From Magnetospira sp. QH-2 (GTDB lineage: Bacteria > Pseudomonadota > Alphaproteobacteria > Rhodospirillales > Magnetospiraceae), in assembly GCF_000968135.1 (NCBI RefSeq), contig NZ_FO538765.1:2988001-3052000 (forward strand): 64,000 nt of DNA, given 5' to 3'. The notes below the pieces were generated by a model. The model had not been told where the DNA came from, searched no databases, and saw nothing but the letters and a program-made list of their open reading frames with translations. Numbering within the stretch: position 1 is the first letter of the stretch; each line of letters opens with the position of its first letter. Positions 30,494 to 33,970 of the stretch are shown here, piece by piece. The translations under genes and the position numbers were made by a program.

Positions 30494-30883
30494 ATGAGCA
30501 GCCCCGCTTCTCCTTCTGAGACCTCCCGTTCGCGCGCCGGCGACATTGACCGGTTCGTGGGGAGCCGTATTCGTGAACGACGAGTCATGTTAGGTCTCAG
30601 CCAGCAGCAGATGGCCGACATGATCGGTGTAACCTATCAGCAAGCCCACAAGTACGAGCGCGGCATCAACCGCATCTCGGCGGGTCGGCTCTATGAAGTG
30701 GCACAGGCCCTGCAAGTCCCGGTGGGTTATTTCTACGAAGGCCTGGAAGAATCCGAGGCCGAGAACGAATTGCTGTCCCGCCAGCGCATGTGCCTGGAGC
30801 TGGCCCGCAACTTCACCCAGATCGACAACGAACGGCATCAAGAAGCCCTGAGCCAACTGGCCCGGGCGTTGGCGACGGAATAG
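30494..30883 (+). CDS. XRE-family helix-turn-helix regulator
   Basis: 129 residues. HTH_3 domain at about 20-80: IRERRVMLGLSQQQMADMIGVTYQQAHKYERGINRISAGRLYEVAQALQVPVGYFY. The C-terminal 45 residues are helical (ESEAENELLSRQRMCLELARNFTQIDNERHQEALSQLARALA). This is the widespread single-copy alphaproteobacterial regulator type, some of which control cell-cycle or symbiotic genes; the target here is unknown. GGGATAAGGAAACC lies before the ATG. Confidence 0.88.
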   Translation: MSSPASPSETSRSRAGDIDRFVGSRIRERRVMLGLSQQQMADMIGVTYQQAHKYERGINRISAGRLYEVAQALQVPVGYFYEGLEESEAENELLSRQRMCLELARNFTQIDNERHQEALSQLARALATE

Positions 30884-30981: not shown

Positions 30982-31584
30982 TCAACCGCTCTTGTCAGCA
31001 TCGCCGTTACCACCCGATTTGGGCACCGGAAAGCAGTGCAGCATGACCATGAACTCCCGTGCGCCATCGGGGCCGGGGGTACCGGTCGGGGGTGAGCGGC
31101 GGGTTTCCTCCCAAAGCAGGGCGGTCAGCTTTTCCTTGAACGCCTCGGCCTGTTCCGCCGTCATCATCAAGGTGTAATCGCTGGCATTGGAGGCCCGCCG
31201 CCACTCCGGCGGCTGTTGCGGGAATTCTTCCACCGCCTGCCGCATCAGATCCATTTGCTGGGCGAGCACCGCCCGGATCATCGCCAACCCGGCTTCCATC
31301 TCTTCGTCCGAGAGCTCGGCGGGGTCATCGCCGACCACTTCGTCGCGCGCCCGCCACCATCGCTCGCGCTTGTTCCCCAACGCCGTATCCTGCGCGATGA
31401 AGCCGTATTCAGCCAGCTGGCGCAGGTGGTAGCTCGTCGCACCGGAATTGAGGCCCAGGCGCTTTGCTAGCCCCGTCGCCGTGGCCGGTCCGTCAAAGCG
31501 CAAGATCCCCAGAATACGGAGTCGATCCGCATGGGCGAGCGCCTTGAGGGCGCCGGTATCAGGTGTGGTGGAATCCTCTCGCAT
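30982..31584 (-). CDS. ArsR-family HTH regulator
   Basis: 200 residues. Winged helix at about 10-80: ALAHADRLRILGILRFDGPATATGLAKRLGLNSGATSYHLRQLAEYGFI, with the recognition helix in SGATSYHLRQL. The C-terminal part is a helical domain with no metal-binding cysteines, so it is not a classical metal sensor; it belongs to the group paired with MFS exporters. It is divergent from an MFS gene with a periodic TTGCAA array between, so it probably represses that transporter. Confidence 0.87.
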   Translation of the reverse strand: MREDSTTPDTGALKALAHADRLRILGILRFDGPATATGLAKRLGLNSGATSYHLRQLAEYGFIAQDTALGNKRERWWRARDEVVGDDPAELSDEEMEAGLAMIRAVLAQQMDLMRQAVEEFPQQPPEWRRASNASDYTLMMTAEQAEAFKEKLTALLWEETRRSPPTGTPGPDGAREFMVMLHCFPVPKSGGNGDADKSG

Positions 31585-31736
31585 TTATTCGAGATCTTCT
31601 CTTCGGTTGTGGGACCGCGCCAGTCTAGTGGATTGGTCCCAGCCTTTGGAATCAATCATTTTCGATCGGCTCAATCTGCTCTTTTGGCTCGGTCTGATTG
31701 CCTCGCTCTCAATATATGTCGCATTCAACGCCTATA

Positions 31737-31784
31737 TTGCAAACTTTTCTTTGCAAAAATTTCTTTGCAAATTATATTTTGCAA
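31737..31784. promoter_or_regulatory. Four TTGCAA palindromes at exact 14-bp spacing
   Basis: TTGCAA occurs at 31737, 31751, 31765 and 31779. The spacers are T/A-rich and partly alike (first two end TTTTCT/ATTTCT). The array lies between the ArsR gene and the MFS gene, 76 bases before the latter's start, and is the best candidate for the ArsR operator. Confidence 0.6.
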
Positions 31785-31859
31785 TATATAAGGCTGATCA
31801 TTGTGATGAGGCGGGACGGTGAGTCGCTCTGAAAGGCGCCCGCCCCGCAGAGCGAACGG

Positions 31860-33176
31860 ATGAAGATCAAGACCATGATTCCAGCCAGAACGTCGAACCC
31901 CATGCGCCGCATCCTGTCGATCCGTAACTTCCGCCTGCTGTTTGCCGGGACGAGCTTGTCGGTTCTTGGCGATCAGTTCGCGTTGATCGCCACCCCATGG
32001 CTGGCGCTGGCCCTCACCGGGGATGCCTTGACCCTGGGGATCGTGTTGGCCCTCGAAGGCCTGCCGCGCGCGGCCTTTCTGCTTGTCGGCGGTGCCGTGA
32101 CAGACCGACTTTCGCCGCGACGGATGATGGTGATTGCCGATGGCGCGAGGCTGGCGATGGTCATGACGATGGCCATTGCCGTCCTCACCGGGTCCATTGA
32201 CCCATGGATGCTCTACGCCTTCAGTCTCGGCTTGGGCATCGCCGCCGGAATGGCATTGCCCGCCGAGCGCAGCATCGTACCGACCTTGCTTTCGAAGACA
32301 GATCTCCAGGCCGGAAACGCGCTCATCATGGGGATGATGCATATCGCCGGGTTTGTCGGTCCGTCCTTGGCCGGAATCATGATTGGCACATCCGGGGGCA
32401 CGGCCTCGGGCGTTGGAACCGCCTTGGTGATTGATGCTGCAAGCTTTGCCGCCTCCCTTCTCTGTCTGATCCTGATTCGCGGACAAAACGACGCACGCCT
32501 CTCAACCAAAGCGCCCCGTGAAAGTGTGCTGGATTCGATCCATACGGCCTGGCGCCATGTATGGCGTGACCCGGCGCTGCGGCTGATGTTTCTGCTTCTG
32601 GCCGCCATCAACTTTCTGATGATCGGGCCGCTGTTGGTGGGAATCCCGCTTCTGGCCAGCACCCGTCTGCCGGAGGGCGTGGTGGCGTACGGAATGCTGA
32701 TGTCGGCTTTTTCGGGGGGCAATCTTATGGGGTTCGTGGCTGCGGGCGCCCTGCCCTGGCCCGGGGCTCTTGTCATCCGGATCATGGTGATCGGCCTGCT
32801 GGCGGGGTTCGGGATCGTCGTGGGTTGCTTGGGTCTCCCCACATCAACCCTGACCCTCATGGCCCTGCTGTTCGTACTCGGAGCGGGCAACGGATATTTG
32901 GCCATCCTGCTGGTCACATGGCTCCAGACCCGGACGCCGGAGCATATGCTCGGTCGCGTCATGAGCTTTCTGCTGCTCGCCAATACCGGCCTCATTCCCG
33001 CCTCCCAAGCGCTGTCCGGTGCCATCGGCCAGTGGAACCTGGACGCCCTGTTCGCCGGAGCGGGCGTCTTATCTCTCGCGGTCACCCTCTGGGCGGCCAC
33101 GCGCCAACATTTCACCCTTTTCACCACCAGCCTTGCGGCCAACGCCGCACACAACCTCAAAAAGGAAAGACCATGA
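31860..33176 (+). CDS. MFS transporter
   Basis: 438 residues, twelve predicted membrane helices, of the enterobactin-exporter/MFS_3-like type. NFRLLFAGTSLSVLGDQFALIATPWLALALTGDALTLGIVLALEGLPRAAFLLVGGAVTDRLSPRRMMV contains the typical first two helices and the G..tDR..rR loop. A second similar loop region lies near LGRVMSFLLLANTGLIP. It is likely to be an exporter; the substrate is unknown. The gene is divergent from the ArsR regulator and its stop overlaps mipA-like start by four bases (ATGA), implying a transport unit with an outer-membrane partner. Confidence 0.88.
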   Translation: MKIKTMIPARTSNPMRRILSIRNFRLLFAGTSLSVLGDQFALIATPWLALALTGDALTLGIVLALEGLPRAAFLLVGGAVTDRLSPRRMMVIADGARLAMVMTMAIAVLTGSIDPWMLYAFSLGLGIAAGMALPAERSIVPTLLSKTDLQAGNALIMGMMHIAGFVGPSLAGIMIGTSGGTASGVGTALVIDAASFAASLLCLILIRGQNDARLSTKAPRESVLDSIHTAWRHVWRDPALRLMFLLLAAINFLMIGPLLVGIPLLASTRLPEGVVAYGMLMSAFSGGNLMGFVAAGALPWPGALVIRIMVIGLLAGFGIVVGCLGLPTSTLTLMALLFVLGAGNGYLAILLVTWLQTRTPEHMLGRVMSFLLLANTGLIPASQALSGAIGQWNLDALFAGAGVLSLAVTLWAATRQHFTLFTTSLAANAAHNLKKERP

Positions 33177-33970
33177 ATACCGTCAAAACCTTGTTGGTCC
33201 TCGCCGTTCTCGCAGCGACATCCAGTGCAGTTATCGCTGAAGAAACCCCCAAAACCGTCGACGCCCCAGACTCGTCGGAAGCTCAAAGCAGTGTTGGTCT
33301 GGGCGTGGCGATGGTGCCGGAATATGACGGGTCGGAAGAGTATGAATTCCACCTGTTACCCACGGGGAAACTCGCCCTTGGCCGCCATTCGATCGCGCTC
33401 ACGGGATCCGACCTACGCGCAAACCTGCTCTGGGGTCCGGTCACCCTGGGACCCATTGTCAGCTACCGCGCTGGGCGGGATGCCGATGTGAAGCATGCGC
33501 AGGTCTCGCTACTGCCAGAGATTGATGGGGCGGTAGAGCTCGGTGCTCACCTTTCCGTCGCTCTGACCGACTCATTCGCCCTGTCGGGAGAGATGCTCGC
33601 TGATGTCTCCGATGTTCACAGGGGCTTTCATGGCAAACTATCTCTCGATATCCAGCAGCCCGTCACCGACCGGCTGGCGCTGATGGGGTCGGTCTCCTCC
33701 TCATTCATGGACAGCAACTTCGCCCAGACCTATTTCGGCGTGACGGCGACGGGTGCGGCGGCCAGTGGACTGTCAGCCTTCGACGCCGACAGCGGGTTCC
33801 GGGACGTGGGCCTGACCATCGGCGCGGCCTATCAACTGACCGAAAGTGTCTCGCTGAACGGCATGCTCGGCTACAGCCACCTGTTGGGCGAGGCCGGAGA
33901 CAGCCCCATCGTCAAAGCGGGATCCAGCGGACAGATGCAGGCGGTTGTCGGGCTGAGTTATTCGTTTTGA
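33173..33970 (+). CDS. MipA/OmpV-family outer-membrane protein
   Basis: 265 residues from the ATG at 33173. Signal peptide: MNTVKTLLVLAVLAATSSAVIAEE. The mature part alternates as a beta barrel: VGLGVAMVPEYDGSEEYEFHLLPTGKLALG is the family hallmark (vG.g....peY.Gs....), and it ends GQMQAVVGLSYSF with a terminal Phe, as required for barrel assembly. MipA/OmpV proteins sit in the outer membrane as scaffolds or small-molecule pores. Translational coupling to the MFS gene suggests shared substrate or joint induction. Confidence 0.88.
   Translation: MNTVKTLLVLAVLAATSSAVIAEETPKTVDAPDSSEAQSSVGLGVAMVPEYDGSEEYEFHLLPTGKLALGRHSIALTGSDLRANLLWGPVTLGPIVSYRAGRDADVKHAQVSLLPEIDGAVELGAHLSVALTDSFALSGEMLADVSDVHRGFHGKLSLDIQQPVTDRLALMGSVSSSFMDSNFAQTYFGVTATGAAASGLSAFDADSGFRDVGLTIGAAYQLTESVSLNGMLGYSHLLGEAGDSPIVKAGSSGQMQAVVGLSYSF

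Follow-up and report, generated by a model that had tools for sequence, protein, structure and literature searches.

What protein reads the run of four TTGCAA hexamers that lies between divergent regulator and transporter genes in Magnetospira sp. QH-2, and how does it do so? An earlier note on this DNA had reported the hexamers at an exact 14-bp period and called them very unlikely by chance. We find that the boxes begin at 31737, 31751, 31765, and 31779 of the window (the whole 64,000-nucleotide stretch that we analyzed), precisely 14 bp apart, within the 275-bp intergenic region (31585-31859) that separates a regulator gene on the minus strand from an MFS gene on the plus strand. The gene pair had been named correctly in kind: domain profiles identify an HTH_20 regulator and an MFS exporter. 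TTGCAA occurs eight times in the 64-kb window, four of which belong to the array, and TTGCAAN8TTGCAA has three matches, every one inside the array; dinucleotide-shuffled versions of the window contain a mean of 0.00. G+C content across 31730-31795 is 26%, and among 5,000 dinucleotide shuffles of 31701-31800, none contained a hexamer in four copies with an unvarying period between 7 and 24. A chance origin is therefore rejected, because shuffles of neither the window nor the local island ever reproduced the box series, and the earlier judgment of its improbability is borne out. Coordinates of the array and of the features discussed below are collected in Table 1.

Table 1. Features of the array and its flanking genes (window coordinates)
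Feature	Position	Strand	Basis or remark
Four TTGCAA boxes at 14-bp steps, forming three fused dyads	31737..31784	.	Sequence; architecture conserved upstream of homologous regulators
Dyad 1, GCAAACTTTTCTTTGC	31739..31754	.	Sequence; family consensus GCAAAGANNTCTTTGC
Dyad 2, GCAAAAATTTCTTTGC	31753..31768	.	Sequence; family consensus
Dyad 3, GCAAATTATATTTTGC, least consensus-like	31767..31782	.	Sequence; family consensus
Third (penultimate) TTGCAA, putative −35 of the MFS promoter	31765..31770	+	Register as in 60/71 homologous arrays (TANNNT criterion)
Putative −10 TATAAG, 5/6 to TATAAT, spacer 16	31787..31792	+	
HTH_20/ArsR-like regulator, 200 aa, divergent; proposed repressor acting on the array	30982..31584	−	Domain profiles, structure model
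MFS exporter, 438 aa; proposed target	31860..33176	+	ORF, domain profiles
MipA/OmpV-family outer-membrane protein	33173..33970	+	4-bp overlap of its start with the MFS stop; probably same operon

Elsewhere in the 4.05-Mb genome, TTGCAAN8TTGCAA occurs at one further place, C1:2187347 (L001 1501-1520), which lies ∼94 bp ahead of a small uncharacterized ORF (L001 1141-1407, minus strand) and may be either a weak second site or a coincidence. The longer double-dyad pattern described below, with ≤3 mismatches allowed, has a single match in the genome, the array itself. Because relaxed patterns match only the array and the one weak intergenic place (C1:2187346), we rejected a regulon in this genome, none being evident.

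The regulator scores 42.6 bits against Pfam PF12840 (HTH_20), above the gathering cutoff of 27 and thus as a member, and 33.2 bits against PF01022 (HTH_5, arsR family), above the cutoff of 22, but its 44.1 bits against NCBIfam NF033788 (ArsR/SmtB metalloregulators) fall below the cutoff of 55. Its 200 residues include a single cysteine, Cys184, and a search for a cysteine-based metal or metalloid site of the α3/α3N or a similar type found none. Because of this low metalloregulator score and the single cysteine, the protein, although ArsR-like by fold, does not look like an arsenic or metal ArsR; the label "ArsR" given earlier holds for the fold but probably not for the metal-responsive kind. 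An AlphaFold model (mean pLDDT 71, pTM 0.52) predicts a winged helix-turn-helix (wHTH), then a long helix, then a C-terminal half that is also helical. In structure comparisons its top match, and the one match spanning nearly the whole chain, is PDB 4G6Q (Kfla_6221 of Kribbella flavida, a protein of unknown function), with a Foldseek E value of 2.1e-06, TM scores of 0.58/0.64, and a VIA-align Z of 13.0 at 3.8 Å over 167 residues. Given the modest confidence of the model, the regulator is a possible wHTH of the 4G6Q/LugJ type with a C-terminal ligand domain. 4G6Q is 14 to 18% identical to the regulator and is absent from the family-profile sequence matches at E ≤ 0.01; we know of no operator for it. 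The ArsR/SmtB metalloregulators (ArsR, CadC, CzrA, and SmtB) resemble the N-terminal wHTH (VIA-align Z up to 12.2 over ∼80 residues), and sequence matches of the regulator or its family include NmtR, YgaV, and ArsR; however, ArsR/SmtB metalloregulators have ∼100 to 120 residues, whereas the window regulator has 200, with an added C-terminal half and one cysteine. ArsR/SmtB operators are usually described as a single 12-2-12 imperfect inverted repeat. Just past the 3′ end of the ArsR-like gene lies a convergent gene for a small HTH_3 (Cro/CI-type) regulator (30494-30883).

The array recurs beside related regulators. Searching genome contigs with the protein yielded 15 relatives, of which two are from Rhodobacteraceae (∼60% identity) and thirteen from Actinobacteria (35 to 48%), and 14 of the 15 have upstream a 14-bp ladder readable as CRCAAAGANNTCTTTGCAAAGANNTCTYTGYG; the exception is L018, whose match starts at residue 31 and so permits no verdict on the array. 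The earlier note had suggested looking in orthologous regions for the same periodicity and had linked the array to the ArsR-like protein: the periodicity is there, and these orthologues, together with the wider relatives that carry a 14-bp array upstream, support the link. A 28-base double-dyad pattern (≤3 mismatches) matched 13 of the 15 orthologue genomes and did so only once in 12 of these; its reversed control matched none of the 15. One Kribbella genome (G608) has the pattern at two places, the second of which (L030) is CAAAGGAATCTTTGCAAAGCTATCTTTG.

For a broader view, we scored 136 upstream regions: those of the 15 orthologues and the window, a set of 30 matches with loci from a survey of the order of Herbihabitans, a set of 80 other matches from that survey (60 next in rank and 20 lower), and 10 plasmid loci taken from 53 plasmid records. 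L011 and L036 are the same place, counted twice in this total, and G783:C209, which has no upstream DNA, was left out. A two-dyad score of ≥19/24 at the 14-bp step was reached by 73 of 136 regions, window included, and by 0 of 2,720 shuffles; other steps from 8 to 24 bp reached this cutoff in 0 to 12 regions. By set, the 14-bp counts were 14/15 for the orthologues (the source of the pattern) and, in the later sets, 21/30, 8/10, 23/60, and 6/20. The remaining 63 regions fall below this strict score, in part owing to paralogues whose step is 13 bp or whose letters differ. A pattern-free test took the strongest 20-base match of each region to itself at lags 8 to 24 and set it against the 99% shuffle level. 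Of the 136 regions, 98 attained that level; their best lag was 14 (55 regions), 13 (38), a tie in which 14 took part (2), or another value (3). The window itself has lag 14, with 18 of 20 bases identical. The window pairs a family protein with an array at the 14-bp step, the same architecture that stands upstream of this regulator family in two phyla. The family is common, with members in 155 of the 298 genomes surveyed within the order of Herbihabitans.

The repeating element exceeds the hexamer: it is a 16-bp dyad (GCAAANNNNNNTTTGC) that recurs each 14 bp, adjacent dyads having two bases in common. Within a dyad, the centers of the half-sites (GCAAA/TTTGC) are 11 bp apart, and the aligned 14-bp arrays of the family give the dyad consensus GCAAAGA-NN-TCTTTGC, which window dyad 3 matches poorly at the GA/TC positions. 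Two dyads make up 58 of the 73 arrays and three make up the other 15, window included. Alignment of the arrays shows TCTTTGCAAAGA at the inner seam, where neither arm has been lost, whereas the outermost boxes keep GC and the inward arm and have lost the outward one. Because the outer boxes retain the inward-facing half only, the unit is best read as the dyad between hexamers, with TTGCAA a predicted seam where two dyads have GC in common. The boxes and their 14-bp step thus stand as the earlier note had them, but TTGCAA is probably not the binding unit.

Nor is the step fixed across the family, since 13-bp arrays are found upstream of paralogues. The 14 such regions that we inspected (L056, L058, L060, L062, L064, L081, L087, L090, L098, L103, L111, L119, L121, and L126) have three to five TGCA-centered, TGTGCA-type boxes at exact 13-bp steps. 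These ladders often end ≤∼10 bp from a start codon. On a tree of 53 proteins (L018, L020, L036, and the window duplicate were left out), regulators with the sequence QRSGTTSWHLR have CTTGG boxes, those with VNSGTASYHLR have TTCGCGAA boxes, and those with TNTGATSYHLR and an altered wing have 13-bp TGTGCA ladders; a strongly supported branch sets off each of these three box-letter groups from the rest of the tree. Assignment to groups was made by eye, and L066 was placed with the TTCGCGAA group without inspection of its helix sequence. Because clades and letters have a common history, their agreement shows an association, not contact.

The array also appears to contain promoter elements. Of 71 homologous arrays (L036, being L011, was dropped), 60 carry TANNNT downstream of the penultimate box, with 16 to 18 bp between the two, compared with 0, 0, 0, and 1 of 71 for four control spacer sets, which argues that the penultimate box is likely a −35 element and that the last box lies within the promoter spacer. 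The −10 candidate in the window lacks the final T demanded by the family TANNNT count, and an alternative plus-strand promoter can be drawn from the box at 31751 and TATATT at 31773-31778, with a spacer of 16. On the minus strand, toward the regulator, no hexamer in the array exceeds 3/6 at spacers 15 to 18, and TATATT is found only at spacer 20; a regulator promoter inside the array on that strand was rejected on these grounds. Because the plus-strand geometry is present and the minus strand has nothing comparable at spacers 15 to 18, the array is most likely the operator-promoter of an MFS-MipA operon, a dyad-symmetric operator that, judged by sequence, overlaps promoter elements facing the MFS gene. 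In actinobacterial relatives, the array is directly upstream of the regulator gene. In the two nearest orthologues (L006 and L007, read by eye), the last box is TTGTAA, followed 17 bp on by TAGTCT or TAGGTT, so that their promoter register lies one box further on than in Actinobacteria.

As for the proposed target, the MFS and MipA genes probably form one operon, and an exporter is thereby paired with an outer-membrane partner. Matches of the MFS protein to TIGR00900 (a proton-antiporter model) and to Tet(V) both fall below cutoff. An MFS gene adjoins the regulator gene in 8 of the 10 plasmid loci (one of the remaining two is unannotated); the order is divergent in the window and same-strand in the actinobacterial loci that have an MFS gene. 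The window MFS protein is mostly 24 to 30% identical to MFS proteins neighboring the relatives' regulators. Searched in four genomes, it had a match at E ≤ 1e-20 in three (26 to 31% identity) and none at that threshold in G602 (Maritimibacter), and it is not an evident orthologue of the relatives' neighboring MFS proteins. Because no MFS gene is adjacent to the two nearest orthologues, both from Rhodobacteraceae, the MFS gene is assigned as target from its position and from promoter geometry.

The array is thus a conserved, real operator array as predicted from these comparisons, and it very probably serves the divergently encoded HTH_20/ArsR-like regulator; we are less sure that several dimers would bind it simultaneously. 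For binding, dimer stoichiometry, repression, and ligand release at the array, we infer the following scheme. The regulator, a putative homodimer, would read the 16-bp dyad GCAAA-N6-TTTGC, whose half-sites are about one helical turn apart. Three dyads, fused at 14-bp steps with GC in common at each seam, would take up to three dimers side by side, each rotated ∼120° from the previous one. By arithmetic (14 bp is ∼1.33 turns, or 120°), each site points to another side of the helix than the one before it, as the earlier note had it; from this the note proposed a protein that may wrap or oligomerize along the array. With one TTGCAA box as −35 and the last box in the spacer before the −10, the array would double as a promoter, and bound dimers would for that reason keep RNA polymerase off. 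A ligand, probably a substrate of the MFS pump, would free the repressor, allowing the MFS-MipA operon to be made.

Other readings of the same DNA differ greatly in how well they fare. It is very improbable that some other DNA-binding protein, such as a nucleoid protein or a global regulator, owns the array, or that the array is a functionless slippage repeat: its AT-rich composition (26% G+C) and the further TTGCAAN8TTGCAA place in the genome would suit such an origin, but the architecture stands at 14-bp steps upstream of one regulator family in two phyla, genomes seldom have it at more than one place, and regulator clades differ in box letters and step. Somewhat less remote, yet still unlikely, is a palindromic box (TTTGCAAA or TCTTTGCAAAGA) as the binding unit, with one dimer per box and four on the array. 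TTGCAA is palindromic, no block varies less at the central seam, and each of the four window boxes is a complete hexamer; however, the loss of the outward arm and conservation of the inward arm in the outermost boxes are as expected for a dyad between boxes, and the window's own outer arms (CCTATA and TATATA) lack the TCT/AGA of the inner boxes.

A more serious competitor, although we judge it well short of an even chance, keeps the regulator-operator link and is a variant of the scheme above: the overlapping dyads would be occupied one at a time, the array raising local affinity by statistical rebinding without forming a multi-dimer complex. By arithmetic, recognition helices on adjacent dyads with two common bp would be ∼3 bp apart and could clash, and the family tolerates two steps, 13 and 14 bp. 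Conservation of the exact step over many loci and the presence of three dyads in 15 of 73 arrays are harder to explain by single occupancy, though common seam bases alone could fix the step. Simultaneous binding can also be extended, tentatively, to a joint picture that we regard as possible and no better than that. It would comprise a large ArsR-like repressor family whose operators form a regular lattice, along which dimers polymerize with a subfamily step of 14 bp (∼120° per dimer) or 13 bp (∼86°), with two dyads in most 14-bp arrays and as many as five boxes where the step is 13 bp; a promoter enclosed by a short helical sleeve of protein, giving cooperative, switch-like repression; and one 14/13 change on the 53-protein tree, alongside changes in recognition helix and wing. 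That the family uses two steps speaks against a single rigid lattice common to all its members.

In the protein tree, the window regulator groups with two Rhodobacteraceae and three Janibacter proteins (support 98/96). Searches for relatives found only its own genome among 317 of the same order (single-protein query, E ≤ 1e-10) and only its own among 289 of the class (profile, E ≤ 1e-15), thresholds at which divergent copies may be missed. Because none was found in other sampled genomes of the order or class, and because of the tree grouping, horizontal acquisition by transfer from Actinobacteria is the simplest reading. The regulator's target may have been swapped, since the Rhodobacteraceae copies have no adjacent MFS gene and the window MFS protein is distant from actinobacterial ones.

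Operators of several dimers have precedents. In IdeR operators, Fur arrays, and omega repressor heptads, the sites of several dimers overlap or abut and take in promoter elements. One operator accommodates two DtxR dimers, and another a pair of QacR dimers, according to PMC4486848. The DtxR/IdeR, QacR, Fur, and omega systems work alike in this multi-dimer, promoter-covering manner, but they are other protein families with other operator letters and not members of this one. LugJ of Staphylococcus lugdunensis, as presented in PMC11980582, is a homodimeric wHTH repressor encoded divergently from transporter/immunity genes; it binds a palindrome at the lugI promoter, from which a small exported antimicrobial releases it, it was modeled on PDB 4G6Q, and it gives a second shifted band at high protein. 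The two systems are alike in having a divergent wHTH protein next to transporter genes and in 4G6Q, to which the window regulator likewise shows its closest structural match; this likeness is one of gene arrangement and structural counterpart. They differ in that the LugJ operator, as published, is one long AT-rich palindrome and is not described as a 13-/14-bp dyad array. By analogy with LugJ, we infer ligand-released repression of the exporter. The multi-dimer repressor operator is therefore of a known kind; within the accessible portions of the open-licence PMC literature, we found no description of its regular 13-/14-bp fused-dyad form for an ArsR-like/HTH_20 protein (in PMC7764795, the part seen has ArsR only in a table line).

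For the family, the predicted operator can be read from sequence, as a ladder of boxes at 13- or 14-bp steps upstream, and such ladders would provide testable targets for many uncharacterized exporter regulators. The two discrete steps, together with box letters that vary with the recognition helix, would amount to a natural experiment on dimer-dimer geometry and on the evolution of DNA specificity.
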